A stretch of 64,000 nucleotides of DNA from Anaeropeptidivorans aminofermentans (GTDB lineage Bacteria > Bacillota > Clostridia > Lachnospirales > UBA5962): the NCBI RefSeq assembly GCF_940670685.1, contig NZ_OW711693.1, forward strand, positions 2,852,001 through 2,916,000. Reading direction: 5' to 3'. Positions within the stretch are counted from its first letter, which is position 1, and every line of letters begins with the position of its first letter. Made by a program: the position numbers and the translations under genes. Under the pieces are notes generated by a model. The model had not been told where the DNA came from. It saw only the letters and a program-made list of their open reading frames with translations, and made no database searches. Below are positions 925 to 64,000 of this stretch, one piece after another.

Positions 925-1006
925 TATAGTAAATTTAAAGTTAAACAGTGGCAAAGCCGTATATTCACAAAGGCTTTCACTGCTTCTTTATAATAAATTC
1001 ACTATA
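925..1006. repeat. Family A intergenic repeat, internally shortened copy (82 bp)
   Basis: Begins TATAGTAAATTTAAAG and ends with an imperfect inverted copy (AATTCACTATA). The middle of the 138-bp full element is missing, leaving GCAAAGCCGTATATTCAC and its partner. With the family B copy at 727 it accounts for the structure seen in the 582-1069 spacer. Confidence 0.6.
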
Positions 1007-4014: not shown

Positions 4015-4152
4015 ACTACAGTAAAACAATAGCAAAGAAACGGCATATATCTATTCTCCATAATTCAAAAACACAGCTTTCCTTCAGAAACGGTATATTT
4101 TTGAATTATTCCGAATATAAGTTTTTTGCAGCATTTATTTGTTTTACTATAT
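4015..4152. repeat. Family A intergenic repeat, divergent copy
   Basis: Termini ACTACAGTAAAAC and GTTTTACTATAT are inverted. The core shows the family hallmark CTTTCCTTCAGAAACGGTA, equivalent to TTTCCTTCGGAAA of the best copies. It is followed 40 bp later by a family B copy and, with it, fills the spacer upstream of the serine hydrolase. Confidence 0.65.
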
Positions 4153-5490: not shown

Positions 5491-5623
5491 AATTTGACTA
5501 TATAAAGCAAAACAACTTTAAGGTAGTAATAAAACCTATTTTTCATAAACGTCCTAAATATATAAAACCTCTGTATTTAAGCCATTCATCTTTGACAAAG
5601 ATAAAAACTCTTTGTTGACTATA
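5491..5623. repeat. Family A intergenic repeat, sub-type A2, worn copy
   Basis: TTTGACTATA at the left and TTGACTATA near the right border a region whose middle (ACCTATTTTTCATAAACG, ATATATAAAAC, AAGCCATTCA) matches the A2 copies at 22162 and 58413. It stands 26 bp before a full A1 copy; the same A2-then-A1 order occurs at 58413/58581. Confidence 0.55.
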
Positions 5624-5649
5624 AGGGAATGTTCACCTGAAAACAATTT

Positions 5650-5787
5650 TATAGTAAATTTCACATAAAGAAGTAACAAAAACCTATTCACAAGGGATTC
5701 AAAACACGGATTTCCTTCGGAAACAGTACATTTTTAAATCCCCGTGAATATACGGTTTTGTTACCGTTTAACTTTAAATTTACTATA
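5650..5787. repeat. Family A intergenic repeat, sub-type A1, best-preserved copy (138 bp)
   Basis: Perfect 12-bp inverted termini TATAGTAAATTT / AAATTTACTATA. Internally GTAACAAAAACC pairs with GGTTTTGTTAC, and TTTCCTTCGGAAA forms a small inner hairpin. The whole element can fold as one long imperfect stem. It lies in the spacer between the DUF3048 gene and the ABC operon terminator. No reading frame is present. Confidence 0.8.
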
Positions 5788-6044
5788 TAGCTTCATTGTA
5801 AGTGCTTTCAGGTTCACTAAGTATAAAATATATGTTTTTTATTACTATTTATTAATTTCTTTACTATAGTCAGCAAACCTTAAAAGAATCATTTGGAAAC
5901 TAAGATTCATTTGATTTTAAACTTGCCTGCTAATATTTTCTAAATATGCAAAAGTTAATTCCCTATATATTCTAACAAGCTTTATATGCAATAGGCAACA
6001 TAATTATTTCTTAAATGTAGCGTCATTTATCTCTTTAAAAGGCA

Positions 6045-12957: not shown

Positions 12958-13094
12958 TATAGTAAATTTCTAGCAAAGAAGTAACAAACCCAGCCCGCTA
13001 TAGACTTAAGAATACGGCTTTTCGCAGGAAACAGTGCATTTTTAAGCCAAAGCAAATATACGGTTTCATACTGTTTGATTTTAAATTTACTATA
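12958..13094. repeat. Family A intergenic repeat, sub-type A1 (137 bp)
   Basis: Begins TATAGTAAATTTC, ends AAATTTACTATA; contains GAAGTAACAAACC, GGAAACAGTGCATTTTTAAG and AATATACGG as in the copy at 5650. It fills most of the spacer upstream of the ECF S gene. The rest, to 13351, is AT-rich with a GCCTAAAGCG/GCCTTAGGCG hairpin near 13212-13240 that may end the cyuA transcript. Confidence 0.78.
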
Positions 13095-17427: not shown

Positions 17428-17565
17428 CATAGTAAATTTAAAGTGAAACAGCGGCAAAGCCACCATATCTACTCATGTTCAAAATGTACCTTTCCGAAGA
17501 AAATCCCTGTTTTGAGCTTGACGGGAATAGGCTTTTGCTACTTCTTCATAATTAATTTACTATAT
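17428..17565. repeat. Family A intergenic repeat, sub-type A1 in opposite orientation
   Basis: Ends CATAGTAAATTTAAAG and TAATTTACTATA. The inner hallmark appears reversed (AAAATGTACCTTTCCGAAGA). Directly abutted by a family B copy at 17566. Confidence 0.72.
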
Positions 17566-17602
17566 AGTGAATTTGCTTTTATTCCGGCAAATTCACAGCG
17601 CT
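17563..17602. repeat. Family B intergenic repeat, short copy 3
   Basis: GTGAATTTGCTTTTATTCCG followed at once by GCAAATTCACAGCGCTGC, the same right end as copy 1 near 790 (GCAAATTCACGGCGCTGC). The middle seems deleted. Confidence 0.55.
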
Positions 17603-17736
17603 GCGATTGCATGTTTATTCGGGTATAAGACCGATATAATAAATAAATTTAGGAAGTAACGGGTTAAACTTTAAGCAAGCTGAATCTTATTAAATAATAT
17701 TAAATATATAATCTTAAAATAATTTTGATTATCTTA

Positions 17737-17765
17737 TTGACAATTATAAGAAATGCTGGTATATT
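17737..17765 (+). promoter_or_regulatory. Promoter of the ilvBN T-box transcript
   Basis: TTGACA and TATATT separated by 17 bases, about 25 bases before the first conserved T-box helix. Confidence 0.75.
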
Positions 17766-17784
17766 TTAATGCAATATATTAAAA

Positions 17785-18054
17785 TGCAGTGACAGGGAGG
17801 AGTACATATAGCTTCCGCTTTCAGAGAGAAGGCAAGGAGCCCGTAAGGTTCTAAGGTGAAAGTCTTTAGCAGGTTATATGGAAGGTAGCCCTCGAGCAGC
17901 AAACCGAACGTTTTTATCAGTAGGCCTTGCCGGGTTCTCCCGTTATAGAGAAGGGGCATAGTATTTTTGTGCTCTATAAAGGGATTTTAATCTAAATTTA
18001 GGTGGTACCGTGATATTATTCACCCTAAGCATATGCTTAGGGTGAATTTTTTAA
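17785..18054 (+). promoter_or_regulatory. T-box riboswitch (deduced Val, GTA specifier) of ilvBN
   Basis: Stem I shows AGTA (17801-17804), AGAGAG (17823-17828), AAGGTGAAAGTC and, on the 3' side, GGAAGGTAGCCC. By analogy with the glyQS leader, where GAAA precedes the specifier, the specifier is GTA at 17885-17887 (valine). The T-box AGGTGGTACCGTG (18000-18012) offers UGGU for a tRNA ending ACCA. It is followed by the terminator stem TTCACCCTAAGCAT / ATGCTTAGGGTGAA and a T-run (18019-18054). Uncharged tRNA-Val should block termination and turn on the branched-chain amino acid genes. Confidence 0.9.
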
Positions 18055-18061
18055 TATTGTA

Positions 18062-18161
18062 CAGTTAATTTACTTTTATTCCGCCATATAGCCAGATTGC
18101 TTTTATCCCGTTTCAAGTATCTTGCTTTAAATACCATAAAATAAGGAAAAAGCAAATTGAT
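18062..18161. repeat. Family B intergenic repeat, copy 4, within the ilvB leader
   Basis: Left end CAGTTAATTTACTTTTATTC, right end AAGGAAAAAGCAAATTGAT. It lies between the T-box terminator and ilvB, so it is transcribed in the antiterminated mRNA. Confidence 0.65.
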
Positions 18162-18284
18162 AATGCTGCTGTTTCATATTTGTTCAAATATAATATTGAA
18201 TCGCAGAAGACTTAAAATAAAGTAAACGTAAATCGGCAGTACTATCAGTTCATCATAATTCAAATATAAAAGGAGGCGCGTCAT

Positions 18285-22161: not shown

Positions 22162-22291
22162 TATAGTAAATTTCACAGAAGGATGCAATAAAAAGCTATT
22201 TTCCATAAACGGCTTAAACATATAAAATCCTTAAGTTTAATCCATTCAAAATATACGGTTTTTATTACTGTTTCATTTGAAATTGACTATA
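22162..22291. repeat. Family A intergenic repeat, sub-type A2 (130 bp)
   Basis: TATAGTAAATTTCACAGAAG at the left, TTTGAAATTGACTATA at the right, with the A2 core ACGGCTTAAACATATAAAA. Fills the TraX/MerR spacer with no overlap of either gene. Confidence 0.75.
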
Positions 22292-23873: not shown

Positions 23874-23976
23874 TATAGTAAACTTAAAGTGAAACAAGAA
23901 GAAAACCGTATATTTACTTAGGCTTAAAATGTACTATCTCCTGCGAAAATTCTTATTTTTAAGCCTATAAGCAAAT
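23874..23976. repeat. Family A intergenic repeat, truncated copy in opposite orientation
   Basis: Starts TATAGTAAACTTAAAGTG and holds GGCTTAAAATGTAC and TTTTTAAGCC, but the right terminus is absent; the sequence passes straight into the hairpin at 23978. Confidence 0.6.
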
Positions 23977-33943: not shown

Positions 33944-34148
33944 CTTTGTTCTCCTTAAGTATATTGAATTTTTACTTCTAAATCATTATAGCATAGCTGA
34001 GATGTAAATTCATACACTTTACTCAGTAAAATTAAATTCTTTTTTCTATCTATTATGCAAAAAAATCTAAAAGTTATACATATTTTAATATGCCGCTATT
34101 TTTTCTTAAAATTATAATATAGCTAAATTCAAAAGAAATAATAGCATT

Positions 34149-34217
34149 GTCAATTTGCTTTTTCTTATTTTATACCCTCTAAAACTGAATTATTACAGTG
34201 GTATAAAAGCAAATTAA
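34149..34217. repeat. Family B intergenic repeat, copy 5
   Basis: GTCAATTTGCTTTTTC at the left, GTATAAAAGCAAATTAA at the right (69 bp). A family A copy follows directly. Confidence 0.72.
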
Positions 34218-34218
34218 A

Positions 34219-34350
34219 TATAAAACAAAAGCAAAATAGCTGCAAAGTTCCATTCTTCATAATTCAAAAACACGGCTTTCTTTCAGAAATGGTACACTTT
34301 GGAATTATTTCGAATATAGTTTTTTGCAGCATTTATTTATTTCACCATAT
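34219..34350. repeat. Family A intergenic repeat, divergent copy
   Basis: Close to the copy at 4015: CATAATTCAAAAACACGGCT, TTCTTTCAGAAATGGTACA and TTTTTTGCAGCATTTATTTA. Ends near CACCATAT. Lies against the 3' end of the amidase gene. Confidence 0.65.
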
Positions 34351-35122: not shown

Positions 35123-35261
35123 TATAGTAAATTTTATATAAAGAAGTAGCAAAAGCCTATTCCCATCAGGCCCAAAAACACGGATTTCCTTCGGAAACAG
35201 TACATTTTTGATCCTGTGCGAATATACGGCTTTACTACTGTTTAACTTTAAATTTACTATA
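35123..35261. repeat. Family A intergenic repeat, sub-type A1 (139 bp)
   Basis: TATAGTAAATTT-type left end, AAATTTACTATA right end, with ACGGATTTCCTTCGGAAACA identical to the copy at 5650. Lies 25 bp upstream of cwlD. Confidence 0.78.
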
Positions 35262-40976: not shown

Positions 40977-41138
40977 AAAATCACCTTTTAAAAAGCCTAA
41001 TAAAATATATACTTATGAAACTTGAAAAAAGCCTCTTTGTTTTAAGTTTCATAAGTTTAACTTCGGTCTATAGTAAATAAACTTAATCTTTTTCAAGCTT
41101 ATTTACTGTACTTGAATTCATATAAAATAGCAGCATAA

Positions 41139-41209
41139 TCAATTTACTTTTCTCTTATTATATATTCTTTATAATCTACTGCCTGCAGCGGTATAAAAGC
41201 AAATTGACT
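41139..41209. repeat. Family B intergenic repeat, copy 7 (71 bp)
   Basis: ATCAATTTACTTTTCTC and GGTATAAAAGCAAATTGACT. The outer flank TATAAAATAGCAGCAT recurs inverted beside other copies (62860s). Confidence 0.7.
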
Positions 41210-41303
41210 ATCTATCCTATAGCCATTTTACTTACACATTTTCTTTCTGAAAATATATTCATAGCTAAAACTAAACTTCATTTGGTTTTAGTTATATTAT
41301 AGA

Positions 41304-41332
41304 AATAGCCGGATTATCCGGCTATTTTGTAC
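41304..41332 (-). terminator. Hairpin between recA and recX
   Basis: AAATAGCCGGATTATCCGGC-TATTT stem in the recA-recX gap; on the minus strand it is followed by CTATAAT rather than a long T-run, so partial read-through is plausible. Confidence 0.65.
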
Positions 41333-41357
41333 TATATTAAATTATTCACTCTTTATA

Positions 41358-41496
41358 AGAAATTTGCTTTTCGCTTATTATCTAAATAGGTTTAAGGAAA
41401 ACTTACTAAATTTAAAACTTAAAAGATAATTTTCAATTTTTATAAGCATATCCTCCAAAGCCAGATGCTTACAGCAGTATAAAAGCAAATACACAA
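41358..41496. repeat. Family B intergenic repeat, long copy 8
   Basis: AAATTTGCTTTTCGCTTATT at the left and GCAGTATAAAAGCAAATACA at the right, about 138 bp. Ends 7 bp from the recA stop. Confidence 0.55.
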
Positions 41497-41502
41497 TCTG
41501 TC

Positions 41503-42829: not shown

Positions 42830-42958
42830 TTACAGTGAAACAAATGAATTACAGCAACGAAAAGCATGTACTTTAAATGGCTTCAATAATAGCGCTTTCA
42901 TCTATTTAAGCTGTTTATAAAAATAGATTTTTGTTACTGCCTTGATTTTGTTTTGCTT
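42830..42958. repeat. Possible decayed family A repeat
   Basis: CTTACAGTGAAACAA, GAAAAGCATGTACTTTAAAT and AAATAGATTTTTGTTACTGC resemble parts of A copies, but the termini are not clear. It occupies the spacer between recA and the EamA gene. Confidence 0.35.
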
Positions 42959-43036
42959 ATCGCGTTTACGTATTACCAAAATGATTAATCTGCCTTTTTA
43001 GAAGAAATTACTCTTTTTATGCTTCTGTATCCTTAT

Positions 43037-47397: not shown

Positions 47398-47437
47398 AGT
47401 TGTTCCTTTCCGCATTAAAGTTTAAATTTATTTCTAT

Positions 47438-47541
47438 ATTTATACAGGCTCTTCATTTATACAGGCTCTTCATTTATACAGGCTCTTCATTTATACAGGC
47501 TCTTCATTTATACAGGCTCTTCATTTATACAGGCTCTTCTT
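47438..47541. repeat. 17-bp tandem repeat array, six copies, at the end of ftsK
   Basis: TATACAGGCTCTTCATT repeated with exact 17-bp period (ACAGGCT begins at 47444, 47461, 47478, 47495, 47512, 47529). The copy nearest ftsK holds its last codons and stop; the others lie in the ftsK-rimO gap. Confidence 0.95.
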
Positions 47542-49975
47542 CTGTCTCATAAGGGCCGTTTTTCATTTCATTCCACTGGCTGTAGGTTATCAGAACCTTT
47601 CTCGGCTTGCTTCCGTCCTCGGGGCCTACGATGCCCTTTAGCTCCAAATCTTCAATAAGCCTTGCGGCCCTGTTATAGCCTATTCTGAACTGTCTTTGGA
47701 GCATTGAAGCCGAAGCCTTTTCTTTTAATATGACAAATTCCACAGCCTGCTCGAAAAATTCATCCGCCTCATCGTTAATTTCTAAAGTTTTAGAAGAAGA
47801 CGTAATATTATCTATCATTTTCTGGTCGTACTGATGGTCGCTCATTTCCTTTAAGAATTCCACGATGGATTCTACTTCCTTATCGGAAATAAAGGCCCCT
47901 TGTATTCTCACCGGCTTATTTTTACCTACGGGGTAAAAGAGCATGTCTCCTCTTCCCAGAAGCTTCTCGGCACCAACCATATCAAGGATGGTTCTTGAAT
48001 CCGTTCCCGAAGAAACAGAAAAAGCAAGTCTAGAAGGGATATTTGCCTTTATAACTCCTGTGATAACGTCAACAGAGGGCCTCTGGGTCGCTATAATCAA
48101 ATGAAGGCCCGCTGCCCTTGCCATCTGGGCCAAACGGCAGATGCTGTCTTCAACCTCTCCCGGAGCCGCCATCATAAGGTCCGCAAGCTCGTCTATGATA
48201 ATGATGATTTGAGGTTCCATCTGGATTTCGTCATTTTCTTCCGCAAGCTTATTATATCCCTTTAAGTCTCTTACAGCGTTCTGGGCAAATAAATCATACC
48301 GGCGGAGCATTTCCCGAACTGCCCAATTCAAAGCGCCCGCCGCCTTTTTGGGGTCTGTCACTACAGGGATTAAAAGATGGGGGATTCCGTTATAGATGCT
48401 TAATTCCACAACCTTCGGATCTACCATAATAAGCTTTACCTCTTCCGGAGAGGATTTATACAATATGCTTGCAATCAAAGTGTTGATACAAACGCTCTTT
48501 CCTGAGCCTGTAGCTCCCGCTATCAAAAGATGAGGCATTTTAGCTATGTCTGCTACAACAGCCTTTCCGGCAATATCCTTCCCAAGGCCGAAGGCAAGCT
48601 TCGACGGGAATTTCTGAAAGGCCTCGTCTTCTATAATCTCACGGAAAAATACCGTTTGGGTTTCTTTATTGGGAACCTCTATTCCCACAGCCGCCTTTCC
48701 GGGGATAGGCGCTTCTATTCTTATGCCGTTCGCCGCAAGGTTCAGGGCCAAATCATCAGCAAGGCTTGAAATACGGCTTACCTTTACCCCTTGGCCCGGG
48801 GAAAGCTCATACCTTGTTACGGTAGGGCCCTTGCTTACTTCTATAACTTTCGCTTCCACGCCAAAGCTTTTAAGGGTTTCCTCAAGCTTTTTGGAGTTTT
48901 CCAAAATCATCTGCTTAGAACTTTCCCGTCCCGTTTCCATATTCTCCTGCAAAAGAGTAATGGGCGGAAATACATATTCCTTATTTTCCCCATCGGAGGT
49001 GCTTTTAATATCCATTGCAGAATGGTCTTCCTTTGGTTTCTCCGGCATTTTTTTAGGAATTGTCTCTCTTATGGTGATTACGGGGATTTCCTCTTCCTCA
49101 GACTCCTCATGCTCTAAAAATTTATTCATAGATTCTTCTGATTTTTCTTCTATATCAAATGTTATTATTTTGCTGTCTATAACCGGCTCTTCAACAGGCT
49201 CAAACTCTGTTTTAACCGCCGCCTTGCCTCCGTCCTCGGATTTATCTCCGGGAAGAAGTATTTTAACCTCTTTTTTCGTTCTCTTATCCTCGTCTATAAT
49301 AAAGTCAACTTCTCTTTTCTTCTTGTATCTGGTAGGCTTTTTTTCTTCTTCGTAATATTCCTCTTCCTCATAATAAGCATCGGCTATTTTATCCCTTACG
49401 GTTTCAAAGGATTTGGAAACGCCTTCAAAAAATGATTTTCCTGTAATTAATATAATAAATATAATAGAAAGAGCGATTAAAAGGACATAAGAAAAAATCC
49501 TTCCGAAAATACTCAATATGCAGTTTCCTAAAAGAGCGCCAAAAAGCCCTCCGTTATTTATGGAACCGGAGGTATAATTGGATTTTATATAATCCAGTGC
49601 CCCTGCATAAGTGCTTGTCTCGTCTACCTGTAAAATATGGGTAAAGCTTATAAAAATCAAAAAAAGCCCTATGCCCATGGCGATTTTATAGGTTGCTATT
49701 TCTTTTTTCTTATCAAATATTATGTATACACTTAATGCAATAATTAAAAAAGGAAGAACAAAAGCCCCGACTCCTAAAATCCCTTTTAGGAAATTTCCAA
49801 TAAAATAGCCTAAAGCTCCCGAATTTGATTTGCTGAAAACGCTTAGTATCATTAGTACGCTAAAGGCAATGGCGGCTATGCTGATAATCTCTTTCACTAT
49901 TAGGTCATTTACATTCTTCTTTTTACTTGTGTTCTTTCCTGAATACTTCATATTCTTTTTGTTTTTAACAGTCAT
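47525..49975 (-). CDS. ftsK: DNA translocase FtsK/SpoIIIE
   Basis: 816 residues. Four N-terminal transmembrane helices (about 28-178), an acidic/charged linker (200-340), the FtsK alpha/beta motor with Walker A GATGSGKS (487-494) and Walker [12 protein letters not shown], and a C-terminal winged-helix gamma domain (about 750-805; [20 protein letters not shown]) that reads polarity sequences. It pumps DNA through the division or sporulation septum. AAGGTGCCAA precedes the ATG. The last codons (EEPV, stop) lie within a 17-bp tandem array. Confidence 0.94.
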
Positions 49976-50082
49976 TTGGCACCTTCTATCAGTTTTGCTT
50001 TAGTTTGTTGTGGAAATCTATAATACACGATTAAAAGGTTTGTGTAAAATGGTATAAGAAATTTTTATGGTCGATTGATTTT

Positions 50083-50408
50083 GCCGAACTTTCTCTCTGG
50101 CCAAGTATACATTCCTACATTTCGTTTCGCAAATGTATTCATGAATAAAATCAAGCTCTGCTTGATTTTATCGAACTCTTTCTCTAGTCAAGTACACATT
50201 CATACATTTCGCTTCGCAAAATGTATTCATGAATAAAATCAAGCTCTGCTTGATTTTATCGAACTCTTTCTCTAGTCAAATACACATTCATACATTTCGC
50301 TTCGCAAAATGTATTCATGAATAAAATCAAGCTCTGCTTGATTTTATCGAACTCTTTCTCTAGTCAAATACACATTCATACATTTCGCTTCGCAAAATGT
50401 ATTCATAG
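50083..50408. repeat. Family C tandem array, 3.7 units of 88 bp
   Basis: Units begin at 50083, 50171, 50259 and 50347. Each contains CATACATTTCGCTTCGCAAA followed by ATGTATTCATG, and then AATAAAATCAAGCTCTGCTT followed by GATTTTAT: two consecutive hairpins. Units 2 and 3 are almost identical; unit 1 is slightly diverged. It fills the spacer upstream of ftsK. Confidence 0.93.
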
Positions 50409-50577
50409 TATACCACAAATATATTATTTTCTCATTAAATAATTTATAGCAGCGAATGAAATTTAGATTGCAAATTAATCCAAACCGCCGCTATCTAAGT
50501 TCGCACCTTAAGCAATTTTTGAAAACACCCTGGAACTTGATATTTGCATTATTTAAGCAAATTACTATGATTAAGCT

Positions 50578-51753: not shown

Positions 51754-51862
51754 ATAAAACTCCTTTTTACAAATCCAATATCACAATTACTTATATCTTA
51801 TAAAATACCACTATCGTATACCATAAGTATAGGTTTGACAAATATATTTCCTTCCCAGAAGG

Positions 51863-52040
51863 TCTCTTTAGTCAAATGTACATTCATACATTTTGCTTCG
51901 CAAAATATATTCATGACTAAAATCAAGCTTCCCTTGAGTCTAAGGGCAATGTCTCTTTAGTCAAATATACATTCATACATTTTCCTTCGCAAAATATATT
52001 CATGACTAAAATCAAGCTTCGCTTGATTTTAGTCACATTA
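51863..52040. repeat. Family C tandem array, two units of 89 bp
   Basis: Units start at 51863 and 51952 (TCTCTTTAGTCAAAT). Same two-hairpin design as at 50083: CATACATTTTGCTTCGCAAA then TATATTCATGA, and CTAAAATCAAGCTTCGCTTG then ATTTTAG. Located upstream of the CDF gene and downstream-facing to purK. Confidence 0.88.
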
Positions 52041-58412: not shown

Positions 58413-58543
58413 TATAGTAAATTTCACACAAGGATGTACTAAAAATCTATTTTTCACAAACGGCTTAAACATATAAAACTCCCTATGTTCAAGCCATTCA
58501 AAACATACGATTTTTATTACTGTTTAATTTGAAATTTACTATA
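58413..58543. repeat. Family A intergenic repeat, sub-type A2, well preserved (131 bp)
   Basis: Inverted ends TATAGTAAATTTCA and TGAAATTTACTATA; centre GGCTTAAACATA / TATGTTCAAGCC. The whole element pairs as a single hairpin with few mismatches. Confidence 0.8.
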
Positions 58544-58580: not shown

Positions 58581-58700
58581 TACAGTATATTTCTTTTAAA
58601 GAAGTAACAAAATCCTATTCACTAAAGGCTAAAAGCACAAGCTTTTTCTGAAAATGGTACATTTTGAACTATTCCCAATATACAGTTTTTGTTACTTATA
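58581..58700. repeat. Family A intergenic repeat, sub-type A1, right end lost
   Basis: Begins TACAGTATATTTCTTTTAAA, contains GAAGTAACAAAATCCTATTC, AAAATGGTACATTTTGAAC and CAATATACAGTTTTTGTTAC. Only 37 bp after an A2 copy. The remaining spacer to 58943 shows nothing else. Confidence 0.6.
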
Positions 58701-63699: not shown

Positions 63700-64000
63700 A
63701 AATCATGACCACCCTTAAAAGGGTGGTTTGAGCTAGGCCTGTAAGGCCTTGTTACCGGCCAGCATCTCAAGATGCTAGCTTTCACTTAAGTTCAAGCCCC
63801 TATGCCCTTGCCTCTTTTGCTTAGCCCTTAAGGGCTATTTGTATTACCAGCTAACCCCTAAAGGGGTCTTCATATTCTTTGACACTCAGCTTATCTAGAG
63901 CAATGTCATGTTGCTCTTATTCTCTGATGTATTTCTGGATGGTAGCTTCGTTCAGTCCTACCGTACTGACATAATAGCCAACTGACCAAAAATGCCGATT
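63700..64000 (-). mobile_element. IS200/IS605-type insertion sequence, right end, cut by window edge
   Basis: Comprises the 3' end of a TnpA gene and about 215 bp beyond it rich in small hairpins: ACCACCC/GGGTGGT (63708-63727), AGGCC/AGGCCT (63735-63749), AGCATCT/AGATGCT (63761-63776), TAGCCCTTAAGGGCTA (63822-63837), ACCCC/GGGGT (63854-63867). The outermost is probably the subterminal hairpin that TnpA recognises. Confidence 0.8.
63917..64000 (-). CDS. tnpA: IS200/IS605 transposase TnpA, C-terminal end (partial)
   Basis: Minus-strand frame open from the window edge to TAA at 63917-63919; residues RHFWSVGYYVSTVGLNEATI then QKYIRE. The string RHFWSVGYYVSTVG is characteristic of the Y1 transposase C-terminal helix region. 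The catalytic His-hydrophobic-His and Tyr lie outside or at the window border. Completeness of the element cannot be judged. Confidence 0.88.
   Translation of the reverse strand, partial: NRHFWSVGYYVSTVGLNEATIQKYIRE

Follow-up and report, generated by a model that had tools for sequence, protein, structure and literature searches.

Palindromic repeats of the window

The window, by which we mean the whole 64,000-nucleotide stretch of Anaeropeptidivorans aminofermentans DNA analysed here, carries between its genes a series of short palindromic repeats (Table 1), of which the focal copy (5650-5787) is itself nested within a different palindromic repeat of 231 bp. A preliminary description had read these as about 13 copies of a single family. 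A search of the window with nhmmer profiles, built from 44 aligned copies of the type here called A1 and 11 of A2, returned 13 matches (E ~1e-40 to 3e-9), which coincide with the 13 positions so named, the doubtful one at 42830 included, and the family was also recovered by repeat finding within the window. Thus, the homology of all 13 positions stands, and the single family does not: there are at least two families with common ends, A1 of 139 bp and A2 of 130 bp. The window set comprises four intact A1 copies (137-139 bp) and two A2 copies (130/131 bp), the rest being variants or truncated, with the position 5491 belonging to a different repeat. The copies at 4015, 34219, and 42830 bear a different end, TA(T/C)AGTAAAACAA-like.

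Table 1. Repeat copies of the window, with the host repeat of the focal copy.
Feature	Position	Strand	Support and remarks
Internally deleted 82-bp A1-type, both ends, no core	925..1006	-	other 82-bp members exist
A1-like core, variant end TACAGTAAAACAA/TTGTTTTACTATA	4017..4151	+	nhmmer 4018-4131, E 1.3e-12
Host repeat (family E), palindromic, 231 bp once the insert is removed, TA-bearing inverted ends	5501..5868	.	interrupted by the focal element
Focal A1, intact, 138 bp, both 12-bp TIRs	5650..5787	+	nhmmer E 1.2e-36; sits in TA of host repeat 5501-5868
A1, 137 bp	12958..13094	+	nhmmer E 4.3e-28
A1, 137 bp	17428..17564	-	nhmmer E 6.5e-29
A2, 130 bp, TA-duplicating insertion in another repeat	22162..22291	+	nhmmer E 8e-36; empty-site alignment
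Truncated A1, right two thirds	23874..23972	-	nhmmer E 3.5e-15, model 40-139
A1-like core, variant decayed ends	34219..34349	+	nhmmer 34233-34330, E 3.3e-9
Canonical A1, 139 bp	35123..35261	+	nhmmer E 2.4e-40
Diverged A2-type, GAAACAA-type ends (doubtful copy)	42831..42959	-	nhmmer 42841-42945, E 2.8e-13
A2, 131 bp	58413..58543	+	nhmmer E 7.8e-36
A1 without right end	58581..58696	+	nhmmer 58582-58696, E 3.9e-14

The elements have the architecture TAGTAAATTT...AAATTTACTA, with imperfect terminal inverted repeats (TIRs) of ~34 bp around a short palindromic core, so that the whole unit folds as one hairpin. Their 12-bp ends are paired in 97.5% of cells across 44 copies, and the focal unit folds as a single long hairpin (z = -5.5 as DNA, with 0 of 200 shuffles equally good), in agreement with the palindromic unit with inverted 12-bp ends first described. 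Inferred changes per column amount to 4.4 in the terminal and 7.3 in the interior columns. The elements are short (130-139 bp) and non-coding, are found in both orientations, and survive between genes: although ORFs of at least 300 nt make up 74% of the DNA, 191 of 197 copies avoid them and 6 overlap one. An intergenic placement in both orientations, with no protein frame, had already been noted within the window.

Abundance and lineage restriction

The exact 12-bp end, TATAGTAAATTT, occurs 513 times in the 3.76-Mb genome (255 forward and 258 reverse), as against 0 + 3 occurrences for a letters-reversed control, so that the predicted copies beyond the window are indeed present. The distances between paired ends, taken over 864 kb of the genome, show two sharp peaks, 139 bp for A1 and 130 bp for A2, and the genome holds 84 pairs with the perfect paired-end pattern. 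An unselected 644 kb, taken regardless of matches, contains 105 A1 and 62 A2 matches, with 43 and 11, respectively, near full length. Extrapolation from it yields ~250 full-length A1 copies, about 60-64 full-length A2 copies, and ~975 recognisable pieces in the genome, figures that are rough because the density is patchy (144 matches in one 400 kb vs 23 in 244 kb). All 150 scored candidates match the model. The density is higher in the chromosome half around the contig start (noted at 0-0.6 Mb), which accounts for 97 of the 150 best copies (chi-square over quarters, p = 0.0014). Given a gene near the contig start that we take, by eye, to be recF-like, this denser half is probably near the origin. 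A neighbour at least 95% identical exists for 28 of 84 copies, pointing to fairly recent amplification.

Beyond this genome, the covariance model was run against 38 relatives, of which six belong to the same family, and gave no A1 match, and the perfect end pair occurs in none of 294 other genomes of the same order. Phage, plasmid, and viral collections likewise had no match, and the 12-mer TATAGTAAATTT was not found in the literature on bacteria that was searched. Across the GTDB collection, the paired-end pattern is present on only two other contigs. One, from Lapin-027, has the same ends around an unrelated interior. The other belongs to a different genus, UBA11329 (L062), whose assembly includes contigs 98-99.7% identical to the present genome; its elements sit on contigs picked for having matches, with none on 34 contigs taken by number alone. 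The presence in UBA11329 at first resembled horizontal transfer, a reading we rejected since the near-identical contigs and the element-free 34 make a mixed bin likelier, and on this sequence comparison its public assembly (G039) appears to be one. In the same assembly, NN joins replace stretches of up to ~340 bp. Accordingly, the copies are lineage-restricted among the genomes searched, and conservation at the same loci in distant genera was not encountered in them.

Insertion at TA and the question of RNA or DNA

The focal copy provides a direct view of the insertion site, with position 5491, formerly counted as a copy in its own right, being the left arm of its host. When the insert is removed and one TA kept, the host is 80-84% identical over 226-227 bp to L026:11108-11339 and L035:16236-16466, with a gapless junction: the empty site reads CTTT-TA-CAGCTTC and the filled site ATTT-TA-[insert]-TA-TAGCTTC. 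More generally, the two flanks of every intact copy were brought together, either directly or with TA, TATA, or TATATA between them, and matched against the remaining sampled DNA. Gapless joins, with 15 bp on each side, were obtained for 67 pairs with TA, 19 with nothing, 7 with TATA, and 6 with TATATA, where the 67 TA joins are not all independent because many comparisons share host families. The TA join clearly prevailed for several elements, among them L013:5067-5196 (26 of 28 comparisons) and window:22162-22291 (15 of 17); as a counter-case, at some loci, such as L025:9697-9835, joining without TA succeeds almost as frequently as joining with it. Hence, the comparison of filled and empty spacers that had been suggested did reveal the TA duplication, with paralogous repeat copies, rather than the orthologous locus of another strain, serving as the empty sites. 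No insertion polymorphism was seen, all five testable copies being common to the near-identical contigs of another assembly. The insertions are also layered, with A1 copies themselves split in the core by other palindromic repeats (L011:3462-3702, L038:11011-11354, and L028:7814-8044).

Nested insertions with single-TA empty sites identify the copies as TA-targeting MITEs, and we consider it very probable (about 0.93) that they are non-autonomous DNA transposons inserted at TA. The non-autonomous MITE of the preliminary description is thus sustained by the TA target duplication of filled versus empty sites, the hundreds of copies, and the lack of an A1 match in the 38 relatives. The genome houses a dense, lineage-specific MITE population, in which a recognisable copy is met every ~3-11 kb, the spacing varying between regions.

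The other possibility raised from the window, a transcribed structural repeat, would make the unit an RNA or a cis-regulatory hairpin, such as a terminator or processing site, that was kept for its function and spread by duplication. The strong hairpin (z -5.5 as DNA) and the intergenic placement would suit such a role, as would the pairing of 92% of stem cells and the 63 double-change cells, compared to 31 in shuffles. However, sub-families inherit such differences: a tree-based count gives 26 double changes on the same branch, compared to 16-24 for slid controls, and so no excess, with half of these changes keeping the pairing. Neither this count nor that of G-U and A-C lends support to selection. 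Moreover, there are 46 G-U vs 81 A-C cells on the modelled strand (97 vs 111 as inferred changes); as G-U is not commoner than A-C, neither strand displays a clear RNA pairing constraint. Between tandem genes, 43 copies run in the same direction and 45 in the opposite one, counts that are approximate as the genes were called by a simple longest-ORF rule. Further, the elements match no Rfam family at the gathering threshold, with matches in the window being confined to rRNA, T-box, and tRNA, and a structural RNA leaves the TA-duplicating insertion unexplained. The tests of strand asymmetry, orientation, and branch-wise covariation thus lend no support to a transcribed structural repeat, which we regard as highly improbable: the pairing and orientation pattern is that of palindromic mobile DNA, not of an RNA gene. 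MITEs account for a part of the repetitive spacers of this genome, and caution is warranted against calling them RNA genes.

The presumed mobilising enzyme and related elements

If the elements are mobilised in trans, a transposase would recognise their ends, cut out or copy the unit, and place it at a TA, with the TA being duplicated. The IS630/Tc1-mariner enzymes use TA. The TA duplication together with the symmetric ends indicates a DDE transposase, and we favour, with some reserve, one of the IS630/Tc1-mariner type, as the TA target duplication by which the MITEs of this group are recognised is present. However, domain searches recovered none of the DDE_3 (IS630), DDE_Tnp_1 (IS4/IS5), or IS1595 domains genome-wide. 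The hoped-for transposase with the same ends was likewise missing from between matching ends in the ~1/3 of the genome where such ORFs were read, and these look like host genes. Of 36 other genomes, 8 have IS630 matches; at the loci checked in relatives, the IS630 genes are not surrounded by exact TATAGTAAATTT ends. Given the lack of DDE_3 in the genome and of these ends at the IS630 loci of relatives, we do not file the elements as IS630-derived MITEs but only as working like them. As no transposase with matching ends was found, the mobiliser could be lost, unread, or of another family; we infer that it has now been lost from this genome or goes unrecognised in it, with an extinct or divergent IS630/mariner-type enzyme being our best guess.

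Much less probable, though worth entertaining, is that one TA-specific transposase outside IS630, IS4/IS5, and IS1595 drives in trans a whole swarm of at least A1, A2, the 231-bp family, and chimeras, and, in addition, the 34-47-bp palindromes that retain only the TATAGT ends; if so, the ends would act as modules swapped among distinct hairpin cores. We consider it very unlikely that the elements are REP-like palindromes and that a Y1 (IS200/IS605, RAYT) transposase moved them: the genome has 26 Y1_Tnp matches, many of them identical, and the elements are palindromic, but the IS200 ends that were compared (ATTGTATCTCATACAATAAACC... / ...GGTAGTTATGATT) have nothing in common with TATAGTAAATTT. 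Moreover, the elements have symmetric ends of ~34 bp and a duplicated TA, whereas Y1 elements are not known to duplicate their target or to carry symmetric terminal inverted repeats. On the unrelated end sequences of the compared copies, we rejected an IS200 origin of the elements. The IS200/IS605 TnpA genes lie at 26 places on the chromosomal contig (G000:C1), one of them across the window end at 63920, and their many identical scores suggest that they were probably recently active.

The preferred reading, TA-inserted MITEs, places the elements among well-described bacterial repeats, for which TA at the ends, A+T-richness, TIRs, and target duplications (TSD) are typical (PMC2229807). They resemble RUP, Correia/NEMIS, and ERIC, which are A+T-rich, <200 bp, hairpin-forming, and TA-ended with TSD (PMC2229807, PMC3049150; reviewed in PMC10969869), and are a new case of this known kind. 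RUP, the repeat unit of pneumococcus (~107 bp, ~110 copies), is likewise intergenic, A+T-rich, and non-coding, with TIRs and a TA target, and its proposed mobiliser is IS630-Spn1 (PMC2229807, PMC3049150). It differs from the present elements in length and, as far as known, in sequence. Further, a candidate transposase with matching ends accompanies RUP in its own genome, whereas none was found here, and RUP is over-represented between convergent genes, unlike these elements (31 of 174, compared to 81 of 447 spacers). Correia/NEMIS of Neisseria, a hairpin-forming MITE of 107-155 bp with a TIR of ~24 bp, TA ends, target duplication, and sub-families with common ends (PMC2229807), is by description alike in its hairpin, TIR, TA duplication, and shared-end sub-families; however, an IHF site and promoters are described for it, and its host belongs to a different phylum. 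The enterobacterial ERIC/IRU (127 bp) also has TA at its termini and a target duplication, with a TIR of 7 bp (PMC2229807), whereas, comparing by description, the ends of these elements match over ~34 bp. Ends in common with an autonomous transposon are usual for a MITE without being obligatory: for bacterial repeats, RUP excepted, such a similarity either had not been looked for or had not turned up (PMC2229807). A swarm for which no matching transposase was found raises anew the recurring question of how such swarms originate. The most unusual part is the swarm itself, with its families with common ends, chimeras, and tiny palindromes. Owing to the shared-end sub-families and the readable nesting, the order of amplification and the choice of targets can be derived from a single genome.

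Several other repeats share the spacers with A1 and A2. The tiny palindromes of 34-47 bp, with TATAGT...ACTATA ends and almost nothing else (L013:2603-2640, L012:19786-19828, L019:1893-1934, L033:11564-11606, L009:18291-18331, L025:15104-15137, and L022:7883-7929), may represent either derivatives reduced to the ends or a minimal family of their own. Another family, with TATAGTCAATTTGCTTTTATACC... ends, occurs at 17563-18200, 34145-34220, and 41100-41500 of the window, and 143-bp chimeras combine the left half of this TATAGTCAATTTGCTTTTATACC family with an A1 right end (L026:19145-19288 and L024:19774-19916). A further family of ~110 bp, TATAGTAAATTTGCTTTTCTTCCGCAGTAAG...ACTTTAATTCGAGTATA, with a right end resembling that of A1, is found at L022:1812, L042:3432, window 45410, and elsewhere. 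The window also holds 88-bp near-tandem repeats with a TTCGCTTCGCAAAATGTATTCAT core (50044-50434 and 51859-52031) and a 17-bp tandem repeat (47416-47551). Finally, at L020:6551-10626, A1 copies flank genes of a probable prophage that, named by eye, we take to be portal- and terminase-like.
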